Source: a virus. Taken from it: a stretch of DNA of 37,418 nucleotides. The stretch covers positions 1 to 37,418 of the IMG/VR virus record IMGVR_UViG_3300025110_000045; one strand, written 5' to 3'. Of this stretch, positions 889 to 25,860 are shown one piece after another. A program made the translations under genes and the position numbers. The notes beneath the pieces were generated by a model. The model was given only the letters and a program-made list of their open reading frames with translations, was not told where the DNA came from and ran no database searches. Numbering within the stretch: position 1 is the first letter of the stretch; every line of letters begins with the position of its first letter.

Positions 889-3800
889 TGCCTGAGATTA
901 AAATACCATTAAATTCAGGAATTGACCAATTTTCAGATGCTGAAGAGGTTGGTTTTAATGGGAATACTGAACTTCAAAATGTTTATATTGATACCCCCGG
1001 AAAATGTACAATAAGACCATATACGAATTCGTTAACTACAATACCAAACAAACAAATACATAAAATAATAAGATGGTCTAATCCTGATATTCCTTTTAAT
1101 GGATTTGGTTGGGTTATTGTTTGCACAGATACTGAATATAATAGCGCTAATGGTTTAACGCCAAACGCAAAAACTATTTATATTACAAATAGGGATTTTA
1201 ATCAATTCCATTTAATTACATCGATAGAATCCGGAACAGTCCCAAAGAAAATAGAAATACTAGAAAATGTTGCTTTATTTACTATGGGGACAGGTGAAGA
1301 TGCTATAAGATATCAGTGGATAAACAATTCTTTTTATCAAACATTGTTTTATTATAAGGATTGGTTTTTAGATATAGGTAGACCTTTTAATAGTTTTGCT
1401 AATATAAAAAGCATAACAGAAGAAACATCAGGGGGAACTTTAGCATCAGGGAAATATTATTTTTACAAGGTTGTTCCTATATTTGATGGTCGTCAAGTAT
1501 GTCCACTTCCTAATACTTACCAATATGCTGTTTCGAGTAATGATAATAGTAGATTTAAAATAAAATTAGAAATAGATATAGAAGATTTTAATCCTAGGTG
1601 TTCTTCTATCGATGTTTATAGAGCCGAGGGGACAAATGAATTAGAAACAAATTTAAGTTATTATAAAATAAAATCTGTTTCTACATATAGACCTATAGAG
1701 CAAGATGGTGGAATACTAGACAATTCTAATGTAGGTAGAACTATAGCAGATAATGTTGCTTACTACAATGCTACAACTTCAGCACCTTATACTAAAAATG
1801 ATTGGCTTCCTATTTTAAATCCAACTTTAAATGATACTACAGAGAGAATTGATATGAATGACCCAAATGATATAACCCCTAAAACTAGGTTATTTATGTA
1901 TCCATACTCAGGTTATGTTTCAAATTCAGATGCGCCATTTGAAGCATATAAGATTCCACAGCAATATAAAGAGGGAGAAGGAGGAGGCAAACCCAATGAA
2001 CATAAAATTTGTTCAGGTCTTAATGATAATATGTGGGGGAAAAAGGCTTATCCTGTTTCAGGATACAGTCATAATGATACTGCAGTTACTACTGATAAAG
2101 CAACAGACACATTAAATTTAGATGTAAAAATAAGAACGCTTGATGAACATTCAGAAGGAGATAAAAGTTATCTTTTAGTTAGTCGTACAAATAAAATTAA
2201 AAATGGGCATTTTATGACTAGAGCAGGATGGAGTCAGGGCAATACTGCACCTGTAGGCTCAAGTGAAACTAATTATAATCTTACATCACATTCATCTTGG
2301 AATTCATCCACAGCACCATGGAATAGTTGGTATAATTTTACGCCTGTAGATGGAAACGACTCGATGTGGAATGTTCATAACGGATGGATGCAAAGAATGA
2401 GTGGTTTAAGGTTAGGTTTTCATAGTGAACATAATGGTGGCGCTCAAACAGGCAATAATGCTGTTGCACAAAAATTCACACTTACAGCCGGTACAAAATA
2501 TTATTTTCAATATGCTTTTACATGGACAGCAATCCAAAATTTGGGTAATAATTGGAATCCTCAATATTTTAATGTAAAACTTACAAAACCTGATGGGGGA
2601 TGGGATAATAGTTCTCATGATTGGACGAATATGAACAGTACAAACGCCATTCATTATAAATCATACGGTCGGTCAGGATATAGAAAAGAAAGTTGGGGTG
2701 GTGATGCAAATTATAGTTTTTCTCATGGCGCACCTCATAATTGGTGGTTATATTCAAATACATTTGACTGCACTGAAACAGGTAGTTATTATATTAATTT
2801 TTGGATGCACTGTAGTAATGGTGTAGGGACTAAGATAATATCAGGAGTTGGTTTAGGACACTCTATTAGAGTAAGAGATGTTGTTGTTGCAGAATGTGAT
2901 GGTGGTCGTGCTAATTATTATGGTGGTCATCAGACTCTTATACCTAAAAATTATAAAAATTATGATGCAGATACAACTTCTGCAGAAATTTCTGACCATG
3001 ATTATTTAGGTGGAACTGCATTTATTGGTGAGGAAAAATTTAATGTTGTGGATAATATAAATACTATTTTTACATTATCATCACCTATACCAAGTTCACT
3101 TATGGGGACTACTTCTGAAGCCATAATTACGAAAGGCGTGTCAGCCACAAAAACATCAGGAAATGATGGTCGTGAAAAAATAGAAGTAGAGGTTATAGAT
3201 ATTGGGTATACAGCATTAGATAAACACCCGACACATGAAATTCCTATTAATGTTAAATATGAGTTTTCACAATACATAGAAGGTAGAATGTTTGTCGCTG
3301 ATTGTAGATATACAAATGAAAATAATGATGATGTAGAGCAAGATAGAAATTTAGTGTTGTTTTCTGAGTTAAATCAACCAAATGTAATACCCGTCACTAA
3401 TTATATAAAAGTTCAAGACAATCAAGGTGGATATATAAAAGGATTATCAGAATTATCAGGAAATTTAATAGTTTTTATGGAAAATAGCATTTGGAGATTA
3501 AATGTTCCAAATACAGACCCTAGTAATTGGTCTTTGGTAGAAACAAGTGGAAGTTTAGGATGCACATCTGAATCAAGCATATTATCTTTTGAGGGTGGTA
3601 TTTTATTTGCTAATAAAGATGGTTTATATTTAATGACTTCTAATTTTATACCACAAGAAATAAGTAAACCTTGGAGAAAGCATTATCAAGAAAATTATAA
3701 AGATAGAACATCTATCCATTACTGTCCTAAATCTAAAATGTTATATATAAATCAAGATGACCCTTATATAACTTGGGTTATGGATGGTGGCGCTGATAAG

Positions 3801-6172: not shown

Positions 6173-8188
6173 ATGTCAACAGACAGCACACAGGTACAAT
6201 TTACATTAAACGAAGAGGATGTTCAAGACCCTTACGAAACCATAGATTGGTTTGAAGGTTGGGAACAGCCTGAGAATTTTGAAAACTATATCTTTAAAGA
6301 GTATAATGATATGACATATGGTGCAGATAATAAAACCCCCTTTGTTTTACAAATTCCGGGATTTAATGCAAATATTGGGACTCAAGATGAATGGGTCACA
6401 AAACAATTAGAGAAAGATTCAATATTTAAAGACACTCACATGAATTATTACAGTCTTTATGATGAGTATGGTGGTAGGTATAAAGAATTTCTCAAAATGA
6501 TACAAAAGCATAATAAAACACAAGCAGGTAAATACAGATTAGTACTTCCTATGCACCCTAAAGATGATGGAGCAGGTAATCAAATATATACATATGCTTT
6601 TGAGGGAAGTCCTACTAATAAAATAACTACGCTTGAAAATTTAATTCAATCAAATTATAAAAAGTCTAAATTAGTTTTAAATACAAAGACGGGAGAATAT
6701 GTTGACCCTAAAGTTTTAATTAAAGAAGAAAGAGAACAAAATAAGTTAGATTTGTATGGAGATGAATTATTCCCAATTTGGAAAAAATATTACGAGAAAC
6801 TCAGTACATTCACTGATGATTATGAAGATTGGAAAGATAAAATCAATTTAGATTTAGTTAAAAAGGGAGATGATGTTCCTTCTTATTTACAAGATGATGC
6901 TGTTGGCTCTGATGATGCATCTTTATATTGGGCAAATTTCAATCAACATGCTAAGGTTTTTTTCTTAGAGGACACTAAACAGGCAGGTTTATATGTTGAT
7001 GAATTGTTTGGTGTTGAGGGAGTTACAGCATCAAATATGCCTTCAATAAAACTTGAGGCAGGTCACAAGCAGTTATTAGAATGGGTTGTTGCTAATCTTA
7101 AAAACGGAGCATATTATAAAACAAACAGCAATTTAAGAGACGATATTTCTAGGATAGAAGGTATACTTAAAAAACAAAATGACCCCGGATTTATAATGTC
7201 TATAGATATTCATAAAAAAGATGAATTAGAAAATGCTGAAAGTTGGGGTATTGGTGAGTCTATAGCAACTAACACTATAAAGTTTATGGGATTAATATCA
7301 GGAAAAGATTCAGAAACAAGACTTAGCCATGTAAAGGACTATAAAACATATAAATCTTTTGTCCGAAGAGTTCCTGAAACAATAGATAAATTTACCAAAA
7401 ATTCAAGTAACTACACAGTTAACGGTAGAAGACCAAATAAAGTAAGGATGTTTGTAGATAAAAACCCTAGTTTAAGTTCAATTCAATATATGATAGGAAA
7501 CCCTGTGTCTTACACTGCTCATAATGGATATAAGGTGGCGTTTAATGATTTATTAGCAATTCCTTTGTTTGAAGACCTTACAAGAGAATGGTTTTACGAA
7601 AATCATGATTCAATGGGTTTTGATAAATTGGATTTTGCTTATTGGTTAAGAAGTCATCCTGACCCAAAGTATTCATCTACAGACCCTGATGATAATTTTT
7701 TCTCATATTACGAAATATTGAATATGGGTTATAGTGCTTGGAAAGATGACCCTATGAAAAGTCCTATAGGTCACAATAACTATCTTTCAACAATGGAATT
7801 TACGCAAAAAGACTTACAAGACCATGCATCTATAACAAATAGTATAAATAGATGGAAGTTGTTTGAAGAGAGATATGGTAAATCTAAAGGGGGATTTTTA
7901 GAATTTATGTGTACAAATTATCCACAGGTAGCCATTAAAATGTATCAACTGCATTCAAATATGAGCAATGTTAAGAATTTTATGACTTCAGGAGATTTTA
8001 CTAATACACTACCACCTGCACACGCAAACAGAATTCCTGTTTTGTTAACAGAAATATATGGTATTACAGATAACAATGACAACCCTTGGGATTGGAAAAA
8101 TATGTCTAGCCAAGAGGCAGAATTTTTAGAAAAAAAACCTGAAATGTTCGATGATTTATATACACCACCACCTGCGAGTAATTGGTAA
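6173..8188 (+). CDS. putative ejection/internal virion protein, 671 residues
   Basis: 671 residues, ATG 6173 with AAGGAGG at 6161..6167. Acidic and Trp/Tyr-rich N-terminus (DWFEGWEQPENF), no signal peptide, no membrane segment and no catalytic motif that I recognise. The middle contains long helical segments and the C-terminus ends in Pro-rich LYTPPPASNW. It sits between the small internal-protein-like gene and the giant polyvalent protein, and its stop overlaps the next ATG (TAATG at 8186..8190). This suggests that the three products are packaged together and enter the cell with the DNA. The function is not established by sequence. Confidence 0.5.
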   Translation: MSTDSTQVQFTLNEEDVQDPYETIDWFEGWEQPENFENYIFKEYNDMTYGADNKTPFVLQIPGFNANIGTQDEWVTKQLEKDSIFKDTHMNYYSLYDEYGGRYKEFLKMIQKHNKTQAGKYRLVLPMHPKDDGAGNQIYTYAFEGSPTNKITTLENLIQSNYKKSKLVLNTKTGEYVDPKVLIKEEREQNKLDLYGDELFPIWKKYYEKLSTFTDDYEDWKDKINLDLVKKGDDVPSYLQDDAVGSDDASLYWANFNQHAKVFFLEDTKQAGLYVDELFGVEGVTASNMPSIKLEAGHKQLLEWVVANLKNGAYYKTNSNLRDDISRIEGILKKQNDPGFIMSIDIHKKDELENAESWGIGESIATNTIKFMGLISGKDSETRLSHVKDYKTYKSFVRRVPETIDKFTKNSSNYTVNGRRPNKVRMFVDKNPSLSSIQYMIGNPVSYTAHNGYKVAFNDLLAIPLFEDLTREWFYENHDSMGFDKLDFAYWLRSHPDPKYSSTDPDDNFFSYYEILNMGYSAWKDDPMKSPIGHNNYLSTMEFTQKDLQDHASITNSINRWKLFEERYGKSKGGFLEFMCTNYPQVAIKMYQLHSNMSNVKNFMTSGDFTNTLPPAHANRIPVLLTEIYGITDNNDNPWDWKNMSSQEAEFLEKKPEMFDDLYTPPPASNW

Positions 8189-11100
8189 TGGGAAAAATAT
8201 TAAATACAATATCTGAAGACTTAAAAGATTATTCAAATATAGGTTCATTTGAAGAGGCGTTTAATTTAGCATTATCTGAACTAGGTGTTAATAGGGAATT
8301 TGTTTATAACGGTGAAGTATATTCAACAATAACAGAAAACGACAGAAATAGTCGTTGGATTAACAAAATTCCATCTGATGGAATATGGAAGATTGATTTT
8401 AATGATGGTGATAAATTGTATAAGTTTATGGGTAATGAATGGACTCAAATTAGTGAAGAAGATGGTAAACTAATACCTCTAGACTTTGCAAAAACTTCCT
8501 CAAATAACGGTGTAGCAGAAAAACCTATAGATACATCTAATCCTAATAACCAAACTACTCAGGAGGTTGTCTTTTCAACTATAATGAATATTGATGACCC
8601 TAAGTATGATGATGTAAAAGAATTATTAAATCAAGGAAGATATGATGATGCTTGGAATGAATTAACAGCAATCAATGAAGAATTTGAATTAATTGTTGGT
8701 GATGAGACTTTAGACCAAGAATCTGTTTTTAATCCAAAAATAAATAAACAAACAGGTGAAGTTCAAGAACATTATGATTCTAATTATCCGTTTTTCGGTA
8801 TAGACCAAATACAATTTGGCGAGGGTTTTATACCTCTTTCTCAGGGAACTTTTACACCTTGGGATAATGAAAATTTATCTAAATATGGACAAAGAAAAGA
8901 AGGTCATTATATTTTAGTTAAATTTGAAGATGATACAGTAGACCCTTCAAAAGCAATAAGACAATCATACGAATCAGTAAGTGATGATAAAATATTTAAT
9001 TTTCTAATGTCTATGCCGAATACAAAAGATGATGCTCAAAGACTTGGTTTGGGTGATAAATGGGATGAGGTTGAAAAATATCATGATGAAGGATATAGAC
9101 TTGTAACCACAACGGGTGATGTTGAAAAAGGTTACGCAGAGGTAGAAATAAATAGAAATTTATTTGAGGTTGAAACAGGTATAATTGAATGGGGTTTTAT
9201 GGATTCATTCAATGAATGGTTTACTGAAGGGGAATGGGTTTATGATGCGCCAATAGTGGGAAGTTTTAATGAGTATGCAAGAACAGTTAGGATTGCAGAG
9301 GCTCTTCAAAGAGTTGAAGATGGTACTGCAGACGGAACTGATATGATGCTTTTAAAAGATGTCTATGACAAAAGTCGTAGAGATTCAAATTGGGGAACGA
9401 TGTTTGCAAATGGACTTCAGGAAGTTATAGGATTTGCAGTTGATTTAAGAATGACAAGGGGTCTTCAAACATTTTCTACAAAGATTTCTCAAAAAGCAAT
9501 TACAAAGATATTAACAAAACTTACATCAAAGGGTGGAAAGGAATATTTAGACACACTTCTTGTTAAATATGGGACAAAAATTACTTCTAGGGGTATAGGT
9601 ATAGGGGTGCAGTCTCAAGTAGGTTTTATAGGTCATCAAATGTCAGGTATTGCAGATAAAATGTTACCACATTTTGAAATAGGTACTGACATGGATGGTG
9701 AATTATATGCAATGATTACATCCGATGGGATGAATATGATGGATGCATATTTATATACATCTGCTGAAAATTATATTGCTATTTGGAGTGAGCAATTAGG
9801 CGAACATATGGTTAAACTTAGTCCTATGAGATTTGAAATTGCATCTAGAATAGGGTTAACAGATTTAATGAAAAAATTAAACCCAAACATGACCGATAAA
9901 CAATTAAAGGAATTGCTTAGTAGATACGGTTATCAAGGTGTTTTTATAGAGATGTTGGAAGAGGAGGTTGATAGAGGTGCTAGGGGTGTGCTGTATGAAG
10001 CAGACACAAGACTTTTTGAAAGAGAAGGAAATCCTACATGGGAATACAAATTACCTACCTTGGAGGAATGGACTTCAACAATGGCTACATTTATTGTCAG
10101 TCCTGTTAAAATGGGAATAACCGGATTAAACTATACATTTAATTATAGAAATATTCAAATAGCAAGAGATGTGGCTAACAGAGAACTTACAGACACATCA
10201 AAAGAAAGAGGTAAAATATTTCAAGGCAGGGATTCTGTTAAAGCAGTAAACCAAGCATATGAAGATGGTTTAATTTCTGAAAATACTAGAAACTATATGT
10301 ATATAATATTAGATTCCCCCGGAAATGAAACTTTTGATGAAAATGGTATTTTGGAAATATTTGACACTGAGAAAAAAATTACTAAAGATAAATATGTAGA
10401 AGATATAATGAAAACCACCGGTATGAGTGAAGCAGATGCTGAGGGTCTTTGGTTTCAGTTTTTAACAGGAAGATTAGATTTAGATGGAGAATATAGGGGT
10501 TATGATGTTAAGAATATTTTAGAAGTTAGTATTCTTGGTAGAACTCGCATAGATATGGATGAGGGTGCAAAGAAAGTTCTTGTTCATCTTTTTACAGGTG
10601 CTAATGAATCAACTATAATAGAAGAATTTTTAGGTTATCAATATAGAACCATGAATAATGAAGAGTGGGTTGCTTTCAATGAGGCTTATGAAGAGTATGT
10701 AGCAAGTGGAGGAAGATTAAGACCTGAAGAACTTTTTGAAAAGAAGGGTGTTGATTATATTATGGGCAATGCTGACTTTGTTCAACATCCGTTTCTACAA
10801 ATATGGGATGCAGTTAAACAAGATTTTGGAAGTTTTATAAATGAAATTAAAGGTAAGTCAGGTATGAACCTTCCTGACAATGTTACATCTATGTATGAAA
10901 ATATGTTTGTCGTGGATAAAGCAGAGTCACTTGATGAGCCTATTGTTAGAAATATAAATACAAATATAGATATTAATGAAGGGAGCGATTTAGATGGAGA
11001 TTCATATCAAATAAAAGTAGTTCCAACAAAGAAAGTTGGAATAAAATTAGCCAACAAATCTATAATTAATCCTGCTAACCACGACAAACCCACTTATGAG

Positions 11101-14100
11101 AAAAAAGTTATTAACAGGGGAATTCTACAAGGGTTTAGGAATATATTGGATGCAGTTAACAAGGGTAACATTAACATAGAGGGCGCTAGACAATGGTATA
11201 ACGAAGAAACCCAAGGCGCTTTTGATGTATTAAAAAAAGAAATCCCTGAATTAAAAGACGACCCTGCTTTAGAAGTATTTGCTAAAGTTGTGTTGGCTAT
11301 CACATCTAACGGTCAAAATGTAAGAGTTAATTGGAATCAGGCTGTTGAATTAGTCAAAGATTACTTGCGAGATGGTAGTTTTACTATTGGTTCAAAACTT
11401 GTTGTAGCAGACAAAGATAAAACAGTAAGACCAATGAGAGGAGATTCTTTTAAAGTCCTAAAGGGCGAAGAGTATGTAGACGAGGCTATTGTAACTAGAA
11501 ACATAGAAGGAAAAGAAATTTCTACAGGGGGAATTAGAAGTAAAAATGTAGGTGGAACTCTTTTATTAATACAAGACCTTATACAGAAAAAAGGAATGTC
11601 GGGTGCAATGAGGTTTTTATTGGAAAAAAACAATGGAAGAGTTATTGGCGATGAGATGGGTTTTAATAATATAACAAAAGAGGGTGACCATTTTGGCGCT
11701 GAAAGAATAGGTGAAAAAATAGGTGCATTCTTCTTAAATTTAAATGGGGTAAGCGATTTACCAACCTTTGATTTATGGTGGTCTCGTACTTGGAATAGAT
11801 GGATGGGTACACCATTAAATAAACAGGGTACAGAATTACAAGACTCACCTAGAAATAAATCAGAGAGAAAGTTAATGACAAATGTTTTATTTTCTTTGTC
11901 TGATAGGTTGTCGTCTGTATTTGGTGTTGATATAAACCCACAAGATGTTCAAGCATTACTATGGTATTATGAAAAAGATTTATATATTAGGTCAGGTGCA
12001 ACGCCATCTGATTTAGTTAGTTTTAAAGATGTAGCAATAGAAAGACAGGAGACTATAAATGAAAAAGAAAGACAACTTATCCAATCTACCTCACCCGAAA
12101 GTATATCAAAGTCTTTACAAGATGAAAGAGATGGGGATATTAGAGCCTCAGAACAGGAGTACAGTGATAGAGATATTGAGGCAAGAGATAAAAAGGCTAG
12201 AGAAAGCGTTCGGAAAGGAGATTCTTTCCAAATAAAAGCATTTCATGGAACAAATAATCCTTTTATAGATTTATTTAATCCTGATGCAGTTAAGAGCCAC
12301 CAAAAGATAGGGGATGTGCAAGGTTGGGGAACTTATTTTGCAGAGCATAAATTATTGGCTAAATGGTATGCAAAACTAAGGGCAGATAATGTTCACCCTC
12401 AAGATAAAGAAGAGGTTGATGGAAAACCTACTGTATATGAAGTAATTGTACACAAAGGGAAAAAGCCAAATCAGTATGATTATCTTCAATGGGAAGACAC
12501 ACCATCTCAAAAACAAACAGAAAAAATATTACAAGCATTTTTAAATGATTTTTCTGCAGAAGAGATGCAACATGTGGTTAACTTATACAGAACACTTCAA
12601 ACAGGCGAATCAATAAAAGTTCCATCATTTCATTGGAATCCAAAAACAAACGAAATCAATCAATATAATGTAAGCGCTACTTGGATAGGTCAAGATATTT
12701 ATGACCTTGTTTCAAGTATATATGCAAAAAGAAATTTTTTACAAGTTGAAGAGAAAAATGCTCAATCTGTAATAGGTGATGCTAGAAAAGAAGCATCTAT
12801 GTTCTTTTTAGAAGCAGGTATTGATGGTATTAATTTTATATCAGCCATGAGTCCTAAAGGTATCAAGGGTATATCTAAAGGGATTGTGGTTTTTGATGCT
12901 AATGAGATAGATATACAAAACAGAGAATCTTATCAATTAAAAGTAACAAAACAAAAACTTGACTATTCATCAGAATCAACCTATCAATATTTTTATCAAG
13001 GGATTGTTGATAAATTTGCAAGAATATTAAATATACAAGATACCCTTAGGCATTTACCTAAAGATTTAAATGTATATTTAGAATTGGTAGCATTCCCCGG
13101 AAAATCTAAATATTTAGTTGAACAAATAAATGTTGTTGCAGAAAAAATATTTAAAGCAGTAGAGCGTTCAGGTTTTAAAGTTTCTGAACTAGAAGATTTT
13201 TTATATGCTAAACATGTAAAAGAAAGAAACTCCACAATAAGAGAGCGAACAGGTGGTAAAGATAACGAGGGTTCAGGTATGAGTGATGAGTGGGCAGATG
13301 AAATACTTGATAAATACACAGGGACTCAAATAGAAAAAATAGCAGAAAGATTTCAAAAACAAATAGTTAGAAAGAATTTACAGGCTCTTAAAAGGGCAGG
13401 TTTAATTACAGAAGAAGAATTTATAGAGTTAAATGAGAGATGGAAGGACTATATACCTTTAAAAAACAGAAAGGGTATTAAAGGAATTCAAGATAGAATG
13501 AGAATGGGACAAGGATTTAGTATAGTTGGAAATGAATACAAAAGAGCCGGTGGAAGAAAGGGTATCAGGGCAGACAATGTTATCCTTCATGCTATTGCAG
13601 ATTATCAAAACACTATAGTTCGTATAGAAAAAAATAAAATAATGAAAAAACTAGGTAAGTTGGTTGAAAAAAATCCTAGTGATTTGTGGAGCGTTAGAAA
13701 GGTTAAGTATAAATTAGTAAAACCTGTTTGGGATGATGATGGTAATTATGAACATCCTGAAATGGACTTAAAAGACAATGAAGTAGGGTTTAGGGATATT
13801 GTTGACGGTAAGGTTGTTCAATATGTAATAGAAATTAATGATTTTTCAGACAGTATTTTTAAATTTGAAAAAGGAAGAAACCCACTGCTATCATCTATTA
13901 AGAATATTGGAGTGTCAAAAAGTATACCTGTATTAAATAAATTAAATGGTTGGCTTAGAACTGTATATACAACTTGGAATCCTGACTTTATTATTTCAAA
14001 CTTTGAAAGAGATATACAGACAGCATTTTATAATCTTAATATTGATTATGACCCCAAAATGACTGCAAGGATAATGCTAGATGTTAGAAAAGCATTAGCA

Positions 14101-15522
14101 GGTGTTTATAAGTCTGAGCGTGGTTATAAAAAAGTAACTGAGTGGATGAAAATCTACAAAGACTATAAGAAAAATGGTGGTCAAATGGGTTGGTTTGATT
14201 TAGATGGTATAGAGGAAAAATTAAGAAAACTTGAAAAGGATATTAGAATCTATACTGAAAAAGGTCAAACTAGAAGAAAAATTCAAGCAATAGGTAAATG
14301 GATAGAAGATGTTAACCAAGCAATAGAAACAGGTGTAAGATTATCAACATATAACACAATGCTAAATAACGGTATGTCTAAAAAAGAGGCTATTCAAGTA
14401 GCCAAAGACCTTACTATTAATTTTAACCGTAAAGGTGAGTGGGGTTCAATGATAAACAGCCTATATTTATTTTTCAATGCCGGTGTTCAGGGCGCTGTAA
14501 ATGTTGGTAAGAGAGCAATGACCCCCGGTGGTGGTGCTGTAGCAGGAACTCTATTTGCAATGGGTTTTATAAACAGTTGGTGGAATAAACAAATGTGTCC
14601 TGATGGATATAATCATGAAATATCGGATTATAAAAAAGATAATTATTTGATATTTATGAAACCTGACTGCTCTGTTGGTTTTACATTAAGAATGCCTTAT
14701 GGTTGGGGAGTTTTTAAAGCCGTGGGAAGTATTGCTGAGGATTATGGTGCAGGAGATTCTAGTTTAGGTGAGTCAACAGCAAGAATATTTGCAAGTTTTA
14801 CTAATTCTTTTAACCCTTTTGGTGGTGCTAATCTTTCTCAAATGGTTACGCCTACATTTTTAGACCCTATATTTCAATTATATACAGATACAGATTTTAA
14901 GAATGATAATATATATCCAAAATCTTGGGGTTACGAACATGTTCCTAGATATAGCCTTTACAAGAAGAACACATCGCCAACATATATAAAAATGGCTAAA
15001 TTTTTAAATGATGTATCAGGTGGTAGAGGACAGACAGAGGGATTGATAAGAGTAGCACCTGTTGAACTAGAACATTTTGCTAACTTTTTTGGTGGTGGTG
15101 CATTAAACTTTTTAGATGATGCTCTTGTTACAGGCAAGAGTTTAATTACCGATAGAAAACTTCCAACCCTAAGGAACAGTGATAAAACAAATTGGGGTAA
15201 AGTTCCTTTTGCAGGGCATCATGTTACAACAGCAAATCCATATGTCGCTAAGGGTAAAATTTATGATTATTTAAATACTGCCGATACAGAAATGTATAAT
15301 GAAAGAGAGCATGAAGAATTTGTAAACCTTCTTCAAATTGCAATTGAGAATGGTGTATTGGGTATAGATGAGGCGTTTGGGAAAAGCCCTGAAGATATAG
15401 ATGGAGATTTAATGCCTGATGTTGGAGATGGTGGTATGTACAAAAAATTTAGAGATAATCAGAGGCAGGTATTTAGGTCTATTAAATACGATACTAATAA
15501 ATTTGAATATGAGCCTGAATAA
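8188..15522 (+). CDS. giant polyvalent virion protein with ADP-ribosyltransferase-like and LPD38-like domains
   Basis: 2444 residues. I take ATG 8188 (overlapping the upstream TAA) rather than TTG 8182. Residues 1351-1580 form an ART-PolyVal-like domain: FHGT with His1353, GWGTYFAE with Tyr1383, and near the end FFLEAGIDGI and GIVVFDANEI. Residues about 1194-1207 (DLWWSRTWNRWMG) and 1670-2085 (DFLYAKHVKERN, NPDFIISNFERDIQTAF, GMSKKEAIQVAKDLTINFNR) resemble large polyvalent-protein-associated domains, the last like LPD38. A short motif [DE]S[YF]Q[IL]K[VA] recurs at residues 938, 1345 and 1580, the latter two bracketing the ART domain. DIDGDLMPDVGD near 2403 looks like a calcium-binding loop. 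Polyvalent proteins are injected with phage or conjugative DNA and act early on the host; here the position in the ejection cluster fits. Catalytic activity is inferred. Confidence 0.75.
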   Translation: MGKILNTISEDLKDYSNIGSFEEAFNLALSELGVNREFVYNGEVYSTITENDRNSRWINKIPSDGIWKIDFNDGDKLYKFMGNEWTQISEEDGKLIPLDFAKTSSNNGVAEKPIDTSNPNNQTTQEVVFSTIMNIDDPKYDDVKELLNQGRYDDAWNELTAINEEFELIVGDETLDQESVFNPKINKQTGEVQEHYDSNYPFFGIDQIQFGEGFIPLSQGTFTPWDNENLSKYGQRKEGHYILVKFEDDTVDPSKAIRQSYESVSDDKIFNFLMSMPNTKDDAQRLGLGDKWDEVEKYHDEGYRLVTTTGDVEKGYAEVEINRNLFEVETGIIEWGFMDSFNEWFTEGEWVYDAPIVGSFNEYARTVRIAEALQRVEDGTADGTDMMLLKDVYDKSRRDSNWGTMFANGLQEVIGFAVDLRMTRGLQTFSTKISQKAITKILTKLTSKGGKEYLDTLLVKYGTKITSRGIGIGVQSQVGFIGHQMSGIADKMLPHFEIGTDMDGELYAMITSDGMNMMDAYLYTSAENYIAIWSEQLGEHMVKLSPMRFEIASRIGLTDLMKKLNPNMTDKQLKELLSRYGYQGVFIEMLEEEVDRGARGVLYEADTRLFEREGNPTWEYKLPTLEEWTSTMATFIVSPVKMGITGLNYTFNYRNIQIARDVANRELTDTSKERGKIFQGRDSVKAVNQAYEDGLISENTRNYMYIILDSPGNETFDENGILEIFDTEKKITKDKYVEDIMKTTGMSEADAEGLWFQFLTGRLDLDGEYRGYDVKNILEVSILGRTRIDMDEGAKKVLVHLFTGANESTIIEEFLGYQYRTMNNEEWVAFNEAYEEYVASGGRLRPEELFEKKGVDYIMGNADFVQHPFLQIWDAVKQDFGSFINEIKGKSGMNLPDNVTSMYENMFVVDKAESLDEPIVRNINTNIDINEGSDLDGDSYQIKVVPTKKVGIKLANKSIINPANHDKPTYEKKVINRGILQGFRNILDAVNKGNINIEGARQWYNEETQGAFDVLKKEIPELKDDPALEVFAKVVLAITSNGQNVRVNWNQAVELVKDYLRDGSFTIGSKLVVADKDKTVRPMRGDSFKVLKGEEYVDEAIVTRNIEGKEISTGGIRSKNVGGTLLLIQDLIQKKGMSGAMRFLLEKNNGRVIGDEMGFNNITKEGDHFGAERIGEKIGAFFLNLNGVSDLPTFDLWWSRTWNRWMGTPLNKQGTELQDSPRNKSERKLMTNVLFSLSDRLSSVFGVDINPQDVQALLWYYEKDLYIRSGATPSDLVSFKDVAIERQETINEKERQLIQSTSPESISKSLQDERDGDIRASEQEYSDRDIEARDKKARESVRKGDSFQIKAFHGTNNPFIDLFNPDAVKSHQKIGDVQGWGTYFAEHKLLAKWYAKLRADNVHPQDKEEVDGKPTVYEVIVHKGKKPNQYDYLQWEDTPSQKQTEKILQAFLNDFSAEEMQHVVNLYRTLQTGESIKVPSFHWNPKTNEINQYNVSATWIGQDIYDLVSSIYAKRNFLQVEEKNAQSVIGDARKEASMFFLEAGIDGINFISAMSPKGIKGISKGIVVFDANEIDIQNRESYQLKVTKQKLDYSSESTYQYFYQGIVDKFARILNIQDTLRHLPKDLNVYLELVAFPGKSKYLVEQINVVAEKIFKAVERSGFKVSELEDFLYAKHVKERNSTIRERTGGKDNEGSGMSDEWADEILDKYTGTQIEKIAERFQKQIVRKNLQALKRAGLITEEEFIELNERWKDYIPLKNRKGIKGIQDRMRMGQGFSIVGNEYKRAGGRKGIRADNVILHAIADYQNTIVRIEKNKIMKKLGKLVEKNPSDLWSVRKVKYKLVKPVWDDDGNYEHPEMDLKDNEVGFRDIVDGKVVQYVIEINDFSDSIFKFEKGRNPLLSSIKNIGVSKSIPVLNKLNGWLRTVYTTWNPDFIISNFERDIQTAFYNLNIDYDPKMTARIMLDVRKALAGVYKSERGYKKVTEWMKIYKDYKKNGGQMGWFDLDGIEEKLRKLEKDIRIYTEKGQTRRKIQAIGKWIEDVNQAIETGVRLSTYNTMLNNGMSKKEAIQVAKDLTINFNRKGEWGSMINSLYLFFNAGVQGAVNVGKRAMTPGGGAVAGTLFAMGFINSWWNKQMCPDGYNHEISDYKKDNYLIFMKPDCSVGFTLRMPYGWGVFKAVGSIAEDYGAGDSSLGESTARIFASFTNSFNPFGGANLSQMVTPTFLDPIFQLYTDTDFKNDNIYPKSWGYEHVPRYSLYKKNTSPTYIKMAKFLNDVSGGRGQTEGLIRVAPVELEHFANFFGGGALNFLDDALVTGKSLITDRKLPTLRNSDKTNWGKVPFAGHHVTTANPYVAKGKIYDYLNTADTEMYNEREHEEFVNLLQIAIENGVLGIDEAFGKSPEDIDGDLMPDVGDGGMYKKFRDNQRQVFRSIKYDTNKFEYEPE

Positions 15523-20132: not shown

Positions 20133-20284
20133 AGTGTTTTCATTGCAATTCAGAGTTGGTTTGGGGTTCGGATGTATCATTTGAAGATAGAGCAATTGAC
20201 GGAGAAGGCATAGTAAGTTTTTTAAGTTGTTCTAATAATGATTGTGACTGTAATGTTGAAGTGTATTTGAGACAAAAATTATGA
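20129..20284 (+). CDS. small zinc-finger-like protein, 51 residues
   Basis: ATG 20129 overlaps the upstream TGA (ATGA) and its own TGA overlaps the next ATG at 20281 in the same way, so all three are coupled. The 51 residues have Cys3 and Cys6 (CFHC) and a second cluster Cys34, Cys39, Cys41 (SCSNNDCDC), a plausible zinc ribbon. The rest is acidic. A DNA/RNA-binding or protein-docking role is likely; no family is recognised. Confidence 0.6.
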   Translation: MKCFHCNSELVWGSDVSFEDRAIDGEGIVSFLSCSNNDCDCNVEVYLRQKL

Positions 20285-20733
20285 GATTAAAACTATATAA
20301 AAACAAACAGGATAGAGATACACTAAGAACTGAATGTGTTGAAAAGGGATTTACTGAAAGTAAAATAGTGGCGCATCAGTTAAGAATGGCTTTAAACTTT
20401 GGTGGTATTAAAAGTCAAAATGCTGTAGGATTAGCATCAAACCAAGTAGGTTTAAATTCTTCTGTTTTTATTGCTTTAATCGATGGTAAGTGGGAGTCTT
20501 TTATTAATCCTAGATTAGAGGCACATTCAAAAAAATTGGTTGCTTACAAAGAAGGGTGTTTATCCCTTAAAAAACAATTTTATACCAATAGATATGAGTG
20601 GGTTAAACTAAGTTATGAAAGATTACCTGACAAGAGAGTTACTAAAAAATATAGTGGCTTTAGTGCAATAATAATACAACATGAGTTAGACCATTTAAAT
20701 GGTAAACTATGTAAAGATGGGGGAATAAATTAA
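20281..20733 (+). CDS. def: peptide deformylase
   Basis: 150 residues carrying the three deformylase motifs: GLASNQVG (residues 50-57, with Gln55), EGCLS (91-95, metal ligand Cys93) and QHELDH (133-138, metal ligands His134 and His138, catalytic Glu135). It removes the formyl group from the N-terminal methionine of new proteins. It is shorter than most host enzymes (about 170 residues), as in phage deformylases known from marine phages. All catalytic residues are present, so it should be active. ATG 20281 overlaps the upstream stop, and its stop overlaps the next start (TAATG). Confidence 0.93.
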   Translation: MRLKLYKNKQDRDTLRTECVEKGFTESKIVAHQLRMALNFGGIKSQNAVGLASNQVGLNSSVFIALIDGKWESFINPRLEAHSKKLVAYKEGCLSLKKQFYTNRYEWVKLSYERLPDKRVTKKYSGFSAIIIQHELDHLNGKLCKDGGIN

Positions 20734-22823: not shown

Positions 22824-22862
22824 AAAAAAACCCCCTAACTGTGCAGTCAAGGGGTTTCTTTA
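22822..22862. terminator. bidirectional intrinsic terminator between convergent operons
   Basis: AAACCCC (22828..22834) pairs with GGGGTTT (22851..22857), and ACT/AGT inside the loop can pair further. The plus-strand RNA ends in TTTCTTTATT, the minus-strand RNA in a run of nine T. It stops the plus-strand early operon (stop at 22823) and the minus-strand operon (stop at 22885) with one structure. Confidence 0.9.
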
Positions 22863-22884: not shown

Positions 22885-24798
22885 TTACTTTTTATCGGAC
22901 AACTCTTCCTCATCATGCGTACAAGATAGTGGTGAAAAATTAAAGCACTCTTTACTTTTACAACCCTTATCCTTTTCAATTTCACCTGAAAATGCATTTA
23001 TTCCATTAAGATGTATGCGAACTGATTTACGCCTTGCTACCAACCCAACAACTACTTCCTCAAGTTCATCTGATTTAACCATACCTACGCCTGTATAAGC
23101 CAATTCATGACCTAATGTATCTATAATACTTAAGTCTATTAGGGTAACATGAAGGCTATCTAAATCATCCTCAAGCGTTATGGTTAGTTTAAAATCATTG
23201 TCTCCATAGTTTTCTTTACGCCAAACCCATGCATCTAAATTACCTGATGGACATCCATCAAATGCAGGGTCAATAACAATAGACCTTTCAGGTTTTGGGA
23301 TGTGATGTTCGCTAACTTCCATGTCTCTGTTAGCCTCAACAAAGTAAAATGCAGACTTCTTTAATAATGAATTAAACTTCTTAGCATTTTTATCAAAGAT
23401 ATCAACATTAGTATTAATTTTAGCATCTCTCTCTTGCATCCTTTGTTCTCTTTCGGCTGTCTGTATACCGGCTACTCTAACCTCATTATCATAATCATCA
23501 AATGTCTCTTTTATTTTACCTATAAGAGTTTTGATTTTAGCAGATGTCCTTAGTCTTGTAGAACCATAACCATAACGACCTCTACCTGCAACATAGGTAA
23601 CTGAACCTTCATATTGAAAGTAATACCCTTGCTTGTCTATTGCTTTTTGTAGAGCGCTATAATCATATCTAACTTCACCACCGTATCCTATTTTTATATT
23701 TAGGAATTTTTCTCTTTCATCACCATTAGCATTAGTATAAGGAAGTTCAATTTTTATTTTGAAGTCTGTTGCTCTAAGATTACCAAACCCATCGTTAACC
23801 CATATATCAATAACTTCATTAATACTAGCGCCTTTTACCATCTCTTGGTGTTTTTCATTGATTGGATGCACCCATAAATGATGTTCTCTACCTCTAGAGC
23901 CACCACTAGCAACATATTCATCAAAAGACATGGAAGTCTTTTCATCGATTGCATTTAAAACTTCCTGAATAACACCTTTATTTTTGAATGATTGTCTAGT
24001 ATTAATATAACCCTGAACTTGCTCTCTTCTCATTCTGTTAGCATCATGAATTAAAGGTATTCTAATAAGGTCATTAGTCATAAAACCTTCGATGTAATTA
24101 ATAGCATCTTTATTACCTTCATGAAAGGATGTGCTACTAATAATAGCCTCTTTTTGAACCACTTGCATTTTGTTACCATTCCATGTTGTATCATCTGTAT
24201 TTACATTAATAAAAACAGGTACAACATGACCACCTTCTCTATACAATTTGAAGTAGAATTTTGGATTATATTTATTTGGATTATTTACATACATGCTACA
24301 ATGATATTCTAGCGCATGGACATTTAAATCATATTTCCAATCTTCTATATCAAATTCGCCCTCTTCATCTTTATATGTTTCTTTAAGTTTTGCTATACAA
24401 GTATGATGCAGTTTTGACTCACCGCCACCCTTCCATGTTTCTTTAAGTTTTTCATTAATAACTTCATCTGCTTGTGGTGTAAAACTATAGTTAACTATGC
24501 TAACCTCATGCATATAATCATCATCAATTTTATCATTAAAGAAGTTAAATACATTAGTGAAGACCTTTTTATTACCTCTACTATAATACTCTCTATCAGC
24601 AATTATTAAAGTTACATAGTCTTCCTCGCAATAATCCCATTTAACTGATGCAATTAAACCGCTATTATCCTTCATTGGGTCATTCAACCTAAGAAGTCTA
24701 ACGCTTTTATTTGCAACATGGCTACTAGCCTTTTTAAGATAATTGAATATGTTTTCTATCATGTAGTTTGTTTTTAGTTTATTTAGTATTGTTGTCAT
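22885..24798 (-). CDS. unrecognised 637-residue protein downstream of the hammerhead ribozyme
   Basis: ATG 24798 on the minus strand with AGGGGTG as ribosome site. 637 residues, soluble, acidic, with no family I recognise. Visible parts: residues about 1-130 mixed alpha/beta (LIASVKWDYCEEDYVTLIIAD), a Gly/Lys turn WKGGGESKLHH, a middle with SFHEGNKDAINYIEGF, a Gly/Arg/Tyr-rich stretch VAGRGRYGYGSTRLR near 410, a charged helix around 440-480, and a C-terminal beta-rich part ending in a Cys-containing tail. It is transcribed with ardC and sits just after a self-cleaving ribozyme, with a predicted 74-base leader after the cut. An anti-defence or host-takeover role is suggested only by its neighbour. 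Confidence 0.75.
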   Translation of the reverse strand: MTTILNKLKTNYMIENIFNYLKKASSHVANKSVRLLRLNDPMKDNSGLIASVKWDYCEEDYVTLIIADREYYSRGNKKVFTNVFNFFNDKIDDDYMHEVSIVNYSFTPQADEVINEKLKETWKGGGESKLHHTCIAKLKETYKDEEGEFDIEDWKYDLNVHALEYHCSMYVNNPNKYNPKFYFKLYREGGHVVPVFINVNTDDTTWNGNKMQVVQKEAIISSTSFHEGNKDAINYIEGFMTNDLIRIPLIHDANRMRREQVQGYINTRQSFKNKGVIQEVLNAIDEKTSMSFDEYVASGGSRGREHHLWVHPINEKHQEMVKGASINEVIDIWVNDGFGNLRATDFKIKIELPYTNANGDEREKFLNIKIGYGGEVRYDYSALQKAIDKQGYYFQYEGSVTYVAGRGRYGYGSTRLRTSAKIKTLIGKIKETFDDYDNEVRVAGIQTAEREQRMQERDAKINTNVDIFDKNAKKFNSLLKKSAFYFVEANRDMEVSEHHIPKPERSIVIDPAFDGCPSGNLDAWVWRKENYGDNDFKLTITLEDDLDSLHVTLIDLSIIDTLGHELAYTGVGMVKSDELEEVVVGLVARRKSVRIHLNGINAFSGEIEKDKGCKSKECFNFSPLSCTHDEEELSDKK

Positions 24799-24827
24799 TT
24801 ATAACACCCCTGTATTTGATTATTTTA

Positions 24828-24878
24828 ACCGTTTCGTCCTTTTGGACTCATCAGACCTGACCCACATCAGGTGACGGC
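24828..24878 (-). ncRNA. hammerhead ribozyme, type III
   Basis: Read on the minus strand from 24878 down: GCCGU (24878..24874) forms stem III with ACGGU (24832..24828); C at 24873 is the cleavage base in GUC. Stem I is ACCUGA (24872..24867) with UCAGGU (24860..24855), loop UGUGGG. CUGAUGA (24854..24848) is the invariant core. Stem II is GUCC (24847..24844) with GGAC (24839..24836), loop AAAA. GAAA (24835..24832) completes the core. All core bases (C3 U4 G5 A6, G8 A9, G12 A13 A14 A15.1, U16.1, C17) are present. Stem III is open to flanking RNA, so the ribozyme is type III. Predicted cut: between 24873 and 24872. Confidence 0.93.
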
Positions 24879-24889
24879 ATAACGCCGTC
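24873..24889 (-). promoter_or_regulatory. hairpin ending exactly at the ribozyme cleavage site
   Basis: Minus-strand GACGGC (24889..24884) pairs perfectly with GCCGUC (24878..24873), loop GUUAU. Its last base is the cleavage base of the hammerhead. It begins two bases after the ardC stop (24894..24892). It competes with stem III of the ribozyme before cleavage, and after cleavage would form a blunt stem-loop at the very 3' end of the ardC mRNA, possibly protecting it. On the plus strand the same bases plus a TTTT run look like a weak terminator. Confidence 0.7.
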
Positions 24890-24891
24890 TT

Positions 24892-25860
24892 TTAGTTTTC
24901 TAAAGAGTTTTCCAATATCATATCCACACCTTTTTCTGCTCTTCCTGATGCCCATAAAATCCAATCATGGTTGTTTTTAAGCACTTTTATCCATGAACCA
25001 ATGTAATTGCTTGTATTCTCAATATGGTCACCTTTAAAGCCACAAATATCACTTAGAATTTGCGCTCCCATTTCAGCAACTAACTCCTCAGCAGAATACT
25101 GTCCTTCAGAATGCAATTTGTCACCGTTTCCTAGGTCTGCATTATCAAATCTATCTAACCTAGATTTATGTCCTGTAGAATGCATCATTTCATGGAATAT
25201 TACTTTATGAAGCGATTCCTCGTTAACCCAATCAACAACTCCATCACCATAAGGAATATTAATATAATCCATACTAGGTACATAGTAAGGTGTATTAGCA
25301 TTATCATAACCAAATCTAATAAAGCCTGTTTTCTTTTTTGTTTCCTCTTGTATTTTATTATCCCAATCAGATATTACTTGAGAACTCATTCCTGTAAACT
25401 CATCTAACTCATCTTTTACTTCAGGAATAACTACATCAGGTTTATACAATGATGTTTGAGATATATTAAATACATTGAATGTTCTTAGCATTGGAATTGT
25501 TTTAGTTGTCTCTTCACCTGTTTTTGGGTCTTCTTTAGTAACTTTTAAGAATTTCCAAAGCACTACTGTTGTGCCTTTAGAACCTTTTAAAACATGTCCA
25601 CCTTCATCAATACATTTTTTATATGTCATCCAAACATTTGTAGGATACTGTTCCGACATACAAATTGAATTTAATATCCATCTGTTCATTCCTCTATATA
25701 ATTTACCATAATAATTTCGTGCGTTACCGATTGTAGTAGAGTATGGTTGTGACCAAGGAACTATTCCTTTTTCTAAACAGGATATTATATTTTTTGTTAC
25801 TGATTCTGAGATACTTTTTATTGTAGGTCGTTTGTAGGCTTTTTTATTATATTTTTTCAT
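24892..25860 (-). CDS. ardC: ArdC-like anti-restriction protein with zincin metallopeptidase domain
   Basis: 322 residues on the minus strand, ATG 25860 with AAAGGAC as ribosome site. The N-terminal domain (residues about 14-150) is the ArdC single-strand DNA-binding domain: VTKNIISCLEKGIVPWSQPY, RNYYGKLYRGMNRWIL, WMTYKKCIDEGGHVLKGSKG then TTVVLWKF. The C-terminal zincin-like domain has HEMMHSTGH (His223, Glu224, His227) and YSAEELVAEMGAQIL. ArdC proteins protect incoming DNA from restriction and occur on conjugative plasmids and phages. Length is typical and all key residues are present. It heads a two-gene minus-strand operon. Confidence 0.9.
   Translation of the reverse strand: MKKYNKKAYKRPTIKSISESVTKNIISCLEKGIVPWSQPYSTTIGNARNYYGKLYRGMNRWILNSICMSEQYPTNVWMTYKKCIDEGGHVLKGSKGTTVVLWKFLKVTKEDPKTGEETTKTIPMLRTFNVFNISQTSLYKPDVVIPEVKDELDEFTGMSSQVISDWDNKIQEETKKKTGFIRFGYDNANTPYYVPSMDYINIPYGDGVVDWVNEESLHKVIFHEMMHSTGHKSRLDRFDNADLGNGDKLHSEGQYSAEELVAEMGAQILSDICGFKGDHIENTSNYIGSWIKVLKNNHDWILWASGRAEKGVDMILENSLEN

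Follow-up and report, generated by a model that had tools for sequence, protein, structure and literature searches.

The ardC/637-aa gap and its hammerhead motif

The window (i.e., the whole 37,418-base stretch of viral DNA that was analysed) carries on its minus strand the gene pair ardC and a 637-aa gene, with a hammerhead motif in the gap that separates them. The features of this region are, in the order in which the minus strand is read:

24892..25860, minus strand: ardC, 322 aa, first gene of the pair (PF08401, E = 1.1e-29; PF18818, E = 1.5e-20; phrog_7245, anti-restriction, E = 5.4e-56)
24894-24892, minus strand: ardC stop codon TAA, read from the sequence
24873..24889, minus strand: hairpin H0, with arms GACGGC (24889-24884) and GCCGUC (24878-24873) and loop GUUAU
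24827..24878, minus strand: type III hammerhead ribozyme motif (model R1, 63.8 bits, E = 3.5e-17; RF00008, 39.6 bits, E = 2.6e-5)
24878-24874 with 24832-24828, minus strand: stem III, GCCGU/ACGGU, 5 pairs including one G.U
24875-24873, minus strand: cleavage triplet GUC, with C17 = 24873
24873/24872, minus strand: predicted cleavage site, C17 followed by A, placed from hammerhead chemistry and the aligned core
24872-24867 with 24860-24855, minus strand: stem I, ACCUGA/UCAGGU, 6 pairs plus a possible U.G, loop UGUGGG
24854-24848, minus strand: core CUGAUGA, read from the sequence
24847-24844 with 24839-24836, minus strand: stem II, GUCC-AAAA-GGAC, 4 pairs, loop AAAA
24835-24832, minus strand: core GAAA, read from the sequence
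24807..24811, minus strand: Shine-Dalgarno-like AGGGG, 8 nt 5′ of the ATG at 24798
22885..24798, minus strand: 637-aa gene, second gene of the pair, for which no family or homologue was found
22824..22861, minus strand: terminator-like hairpin and U-tract directly 3′ of the 637-aa gene (–21.7 kcal/mol, z = –4.2)

The original prediction had put a complete hammerhead of type III on the minus strand, in the gap between ardC and an unrecognised minus-strand gene, and every base and helix that it named was recovered, as were the GUC triplet with C17 at 24873 and the resulting cleavage site. The neighbours likewise proved to be as described, with PF08401 and PF18818 confirming ArdC and the second gene having no family. 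Specifically, the 637-aa protein had no match in Pfam, PHROGs, PADLOC, or PDB and only noise in NCBIfam, no relative of it was found among phage records or IMG/VR, and its AlphaFold2 model (predicted from the single sequence) was uninformative, at a pLDDT of 31.7.

The catalytic core (CUGANGA ... GAAA ... UH) is complete, and loops close stems I and II while stem III is left open, i.e., the type III topology, on which the structural finder agreed. RF00008 of Rfam matched the element end to end (39.6 bits, E = 2.6e-5) and matched nothing else in the 37,418-base record, although the curated gathering cut-off of 48.5 was not reached. The covariance search that the original prediction had proposed as a check thus gave a score below the cut-off with the Rfam model, but a significant match with a covariance model (R1) derived from phage sequences. 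R1 was made from 41 phage type III hammerheads, leaving out that of the window, by IMG/VR pattern scans followed by a filter for type III structure and alignment. It scored the element at 63.8 bits (E = 3.5e-17, filters off; second-best match in the window, E = 2.8) and aligned all 15 pairs with zero non-standard pairs flagged. In the R1 alignment, 13 of the 15 pairs vary on both sides, but because its sequences were picked for possessing the stems, these changes describe the class and are no proof of it. In block-shuffled viral DNA (590 kb), the structural finder gave no hits. Judged from its sequence, the hammerhead motif at 24827-24878 is real, and cleavage itself is predicted.

Three other Rfam matches in the window were set aside. 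NsiR1 and sR52 both scored below their cut-offs, the weak NsiR1 match being due to the strong terminator-like hairpin at 22824-22861, and RAGATH-9 (11422-11567) scored far below its cut-off and lies inside a coding frame. Other genes of this genome include one for a 2,446-aa protein that carries a polyvalent LPD38 domain and one for a phage peptide deformylase (8182-15522 and 20281-20733).

Gene order, the downstream terminator-like hairpin, and a gap in which a consensus scan found no promoter match on the minus strand indicate that ardC and the 637-aa gene probably share one transcript. The hairpin at 22824-22861, which sits where the minus-strand cassette meets plus-strand genes, is then the probable end of this two-gene unit.

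Hairpin H0 and the computed masking of the ribozyme

The region just upstream of the predicted cut holds a further structure, hairpin H0, that was absent from the original prediction. H0 is a perfect 6-bp hairpin of –9.5 kcal/mol (equalled in 1 of 200 shuffles) that begins 2 nt past the ardC stop codon. Its 3′ arm also forms the 5′ strand of stem III, and as its final base is C17, H0 ends flush with the predicted cut. A single strand thus presents the stop codon, H0 after 2 nt, the predicted cut (19 nt from the stop codon), the ribozyme, and an ATG 29 nt past the end of stem III. Since H0 and stem III use one common strand, they are mutually exclusive, and when the RNA was folded with its upstream flank, H0 formed and stem III did not.

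On the minus strand, H0 is followed by ACCTGATG, which lacks the U-tract of an intrinsic terminator, and H0 was rejected as the intrinsic terminator of ardC for this reason. The consensus scan listed H0 as terminator-like on the plus strand only, where TTTTAGTTTT comes after the hairpin (24873-24889), which in this orientation runs antisense to the ardC end.

The cost of this masking was computed with ViennaRNA by enforcing the cleavage-competent fold, with tertiary contacts and co-transcriptional folding outside the energies. It amounted to 9.1 kcal/mol in the window, i.e., the highest of 102 type III loci, for which the median was 2.0 kcal/mol. It had been claimed that a shared transcript should cut itself; the predicted site holds, but cleavage is not assured, as the isolated RNA favours H0 and the competent fold is about 9 kcal/mol dearer. 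When the stop codon and the 11 nt behind it were treated as occluded, the computed cost fell from 8.05 to 1.09 kcal/mol in one calculation and from 8.6 to 1.07 kcal/mol in another.

A comparable arrangement was found in a second phage contig (L599), which carries two type III hammerheads with flush hairpins (GACGGC-GAGA-GCCGUC and GACGGGC-AAC-GCCCGUC) that fully overlap stem III. The stop codons lie either 2 nt 5′ of the hairpin or inside or overlapping it, and upon occlusion one cost, 10.8 kcal/mol, shrank to 1.2 kcal/mol and the other, 10.3 kcal/mol, to 1.8 kcal/mol. The scan pattern that retrieved this contig (GACGG...CCGTC before the hammerhead core) required the hairpin, but neither the position of the stop codon nor a full ribozyme.

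Upstream hairpins and gene neighbours of other viral hammerheads

The window was compared with about 400 other virus ribozymes from IMG/VR, whose loci were retrieved with sequence patterns and are in part related to each other (redundancy was cut at 70–75% identity and not by phylogeny); the patterns favour a G-N-C-C stem II and, in one scan, also a CCGTC stem III. For the type III set of 102 non-redundant loci, the best hairpin was sought in the 46 nt ending at the cleavage site. Its median energy was –15.3 kcal/mol, versus –7.5 kcal/mol in dinucleotide shuffles of the same sequences and –4.0 kcal/mol in 391 other post-stop segments of the same contigs (p = 2e-32). The best upstream hairpin of 74 type I hammerheads had a median of –5.95 kcal/mol.

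The extra hairpin of type III loci starts a median of 5 nt past the stop codon and mostly ends 0–6 nt short of the cut, and 89 of the 94 hairpins are distinct in sequence. A U-tract follows in merely 3 of 94, which argues that these hairpins are not intrinsic terminators. With genes called as simple open reading frames, the upstream stop codon lies a median of 35 nt from the cut (IQR 28–45; 19 in the window) and the end of stem III a median of 22 nt from the ATG (IQR 18–27; 29 in the window) over the 102 loci.

When the same finder was applied to all types and the better-scoring type was kept, the share of hammerheads with a hairpin of –8 kcal/mol or lower on the 5′ side of the ribozyme was 79% for type III (n = 110), compared with 19% for type I (n = 134) and 33% for type II (n = 153), with p = 1e-23 for type III versus I and p = 1e-19 for type III versus II. 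A few type III entries are ambiguous or fit type I better (e.g., L017), and the result held with this better-type finder. A clear excess over shuffles was seen in type III only (54%, versus 11% and 8% in the others and about 6% expected). The absence in type II had been predicted before the type II set was analysed; that in type I had already been seen by then. Moreover, 13 contigs carry a type III hammerhead together with one of type I or II, and in 11 of them the stronger hairpin is that of the type III copy. In phage contig L122, three type I hammerheads and one of type III each lie just 5′ of a start codon, and the extra upstream hairpin is found at the type III copy only.

No PHROG recurred among 75 downstream proteins, and the idea that the downstream genes form a single gene family was rejected on these grounds. 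Two composite hairpin-ribozyme probes gave no match when compared with annotated phages by BLAST. A few metagenome-assembled genomes (L214-L219) show the type III pattern as well, mostly those of Patescibacteria (Saccharibacteria, Parcubacteria, Taylorbacteria, Levyibacteriota) and of Polynucleobacter, perhaps in prophages or in virus contigs that were co-binned.

ArdC loci are enriched for same-strand hammerheads, which extends the published link with ardA. Among 80 IMG/VR loci with an ArdC relative, drawn with an alignment-based search, 7 contained hammerheads, compared with 0 of 59 random viral loci (452 kb; Fisher p = 0.02), the sample being small and the control (a random 14-mer set) coarse. 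A terminase/exonuclease control set was dropped because its homologues were too divergent for pattern scans. The nine hammerheads in the 7 loci are of types I and II, and all nine are on the ArdC strand. In L253, L261, L267, and L297, the distance to the ArdC match is no more than 75 nt, and in L296 it is 128 nt; the neighbours in L261 and L297 score above the Rfam cut-off, as does a hammerhead 0.9 kb off in L288. Among annotated phages, ArdC is best matched in MW202801, where a type II hammerhead (7036-7097, above the Rfam cut-off) lies 0.2 kb downstream of ardC. In a further locus (L074), a type III hammerhead lies directly 5′ of ardC, but since this locus was found via its hammerhead, it is not independent support for the link.

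According to the original prediction, hammerheads were known in some phages, but none between ardC and a partner gene. The placement is not without precedent, as all three hammerhead types occur beside phage ardC, and passages of a 2011 paper (PMC3088659) already describe gene-flanking phage hammerheads, including at ardA. The single-sequence scan confirmed no close ArdC relatives, the nearest ArdC (L224, 55% identical) has no type III hammerhead, and retention of the hairpin-ribozyme arrangement was not seen in close relatives of the window phage.

Two side observations concern cultured or annotated phages. Cellulophaga phage phi18:3 (KC821620) has an unannotated type I hammerhead at about 2994-3049, with core CUGAAGA, in the gp050/gp049 gap and about 0.9 kb upstream of ardA; being a cultured phage, it is a convenient laboratory test case. 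The ArdC-bearing phage MW202796 carries, on the minus strand at 2794-2860, an int-alpA RNA above the Rfam cut-off, where the terminase gene region begins.

Proposed role, alternatives, and known systems

We consider it fairly likely that H0 and the ribozyme form a punctuation module, which would split the co-transcript and cap the new 3′ end with a hairpin. The hammerhead, established as a motif and predicted to be active, would cut the ardC/637-aa co-transcript at 24873/24872. The ardC mRNA would then end flush in H0 with a 2′,3′-cyclic phosphate and should resist 3′ exonucleases, while the 637-aa mRNA would begin with a 5′-OH and the stem I hairpin and carry a ribosome-binding site of its own behind them. 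From the shared-strand geometry, H0 re-forming after the cut would trap the product and render the cut irreversible. The suggestion in the original prediction that the element could separate expression or stability of the two mRNAs is backed insofar as their separation is its likely role, with cleavage being predicted.

The differences between the types fit this proposal. In type III, stem III is open and the upstream product would otherwise be single-stranded at its end, so that an extra hairpin is needed only there; in types I and II, a closed stem III ends the upstream fragment, and no added hairpin is needed for a protected 3′ end. With the cuts as predicted, the upstream product of all three types alike ends in a hairpin. 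Types I and II end on stem III and type III on the extra hairpin, so that the upstream mRNA of every type would end in a hairpin. The comparison of about 400 ribozymes therefore suggests, at the level of sequence, a general rule for message punctuation by these viruses.

Against the proposal, isolated RNA of the window favours H0 by about 9 kcal/mol, so that cleavage by the ribozyme may be slow or absent as long as H0 stays closed. Before the cut, H0 would restrain the ribozyme until it is opened, most simply by a ribosome on the ardC stop codon. Further points against it are the RF00008 score under the cut-off and the nearest ArdC, which is without a type III hammerhead.

This restraint raises the possibility that translation controls the ribozyme. 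It is conceivable, if doubtful, that H0 locks the stem III strand in untranslated RNA and that a terminating ribosome covers the 5′ arm and frees the 3′ arm. If the lock were opened by a ribosome at the ardC stop codon, cleavage would report recent ardC translation. The full sequence of events, in which H0 keeps the ribozyme off, a terminating ribosome opens it, the RNA cuts, and H0 re-forms as the 3′ cap, we regard as unlikely. Such gating is coherent but unproven and speculative, and it would add to the capping model and does not exclude it. The window is the most masked of the 102 loci, its cost falls to about 1.1 kcal/mol upon occlusion, and the flush, fully overlapping hairpin occurs twice in the unrelated contig L599 with a like drop. 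However, the argument is purely thermodynamic, with an assumed ribosome footprint and with co-transcriptional folding and loop I/loop II contacts outside the model; moreover, the L599 hairpins came from a pattern that demanded them, and most type III loci are weakly masked.

In an alternative reading, the hairpin, given its place between stop codon and ribozyme, would have no part in the 3′ end of the upstream mRNA and would only shield the ribozyme, either against trailing ribosomes or against misfolding with RNA on its 5′ side. This is improbable, as the open helix of types I and II also faces upstream RNA and the same need would be expected there, yet these types have no hairpin, for which reason an insulation-only role was rejected; in the window, moreover, the hairpin disrupts stem III and offers it no protection. 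That the hairpin stops transcription, with the hammerhead behind it by chance, is very unlikely. In the window this could apply to the plus strand (GACGGCATAACGCCGTC then TTTTAGTTTT), on which the consensus scan marks H0 as terminator-like, but no convincing plus-strand gene ends at H0, the strand of both genes offers no U-tract after it, and class-wide such tracts are as rare as given above. The element could also be a decayed or inactive hammerhead or a functionless relic, in keeping with its strong masking, its Rfam score below threshold, and the lack of relatives showing retention. We hold this to be hardly probable, since core, helices, and both loops are intact, with loop I (UGUGGG) identical in locus L127 and the AAAA loop of stem II common in the type III class; the spacings to stop and start codons are class-typical, and the masking pattern recurs in L599.

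The proposed cut-and-cap role has consequences beyond this locus. A 2017 review names the role of bacterial and phage hammerheads as an open question of the field (PMC6155905), and the hairpin rule makes the purpose of the phage ribozymes directly testable. If they serve protected mRNA 3′ ends, an added hairpin should be required in type III but dispensable in types I and II, and the sequences agree. The rule would account for a feature seen in hundreds of intergenic regions of phages, and the self-masking variant in the window is a candidate translation-controlled ribozyme. In the open-licence literature, no report was found of a type-specific upstream hairpin or of a hairpin masking stem III. 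The hairpin rule and the masking provisionally appear to be new, whereas intergenic phage hammerheads were already known.

RNase III sites between T7 early genes are cut in the polycistronic phage RNA to leave stable hairpin-ended messages, for which the host protein is needed; in the window, by contrast, the RNA itself is predicted to cut. The closest published counterparts are the phage and prophage hammerheads of Perreault et al. (2011), which share with the window their intergenic placement and an anti-restriction neighbour. Passages of that paper describe hammerheads of all types between phage genes, proposed to process long transcripts into gene-length mRNAs, a triple set on the flanks of the anti-restriction gene ardA in A. 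tumefaciens, which shows cleavage in E. coli, and a hammerhead followed by ardA in Legionella (PMC3088659). The same passages contain no mention of a type-specific upstream hairpin, of masking, or of a link to ardC. They also cover the HHphage of haloviruses HF1/HF2, located 13 nt upstream of the helicase start codon in an early polycistronic transcript, where the cleavage site is discussed as matching a transcript 5′ end and taken as a sign of in vivo activity (PMC3088659). That element differs in being a core variant, in a high-salt archaeal virus and another gene context. The theta (HDV-like) ribozymes of gut phages are likewise phage-encoded, self-cleaving, and proposed to process transcripts, but they have another fold and lie at tRNA 3′ trailers (PMC10879173).

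The proposed module would be a natural relative of the RiboJ insulator, a synthetic element in which a type III (sTRSV) hammerhead in the 5′ UTR trims the leader and raises mRNA and protein, and for which a terminal hairpin left on the mRNA after cleavage was suggested to be stabilising (PMC6206723). RiboJ was engineered from a plant satellite RNA, and its added 23-nt hairpin stands 3′ of the ribozyme, on the downstream product (PMC6206723). In the window, in contrast, the extra hairpin stands 5′ of the ribozyme and is part of the upstream product.
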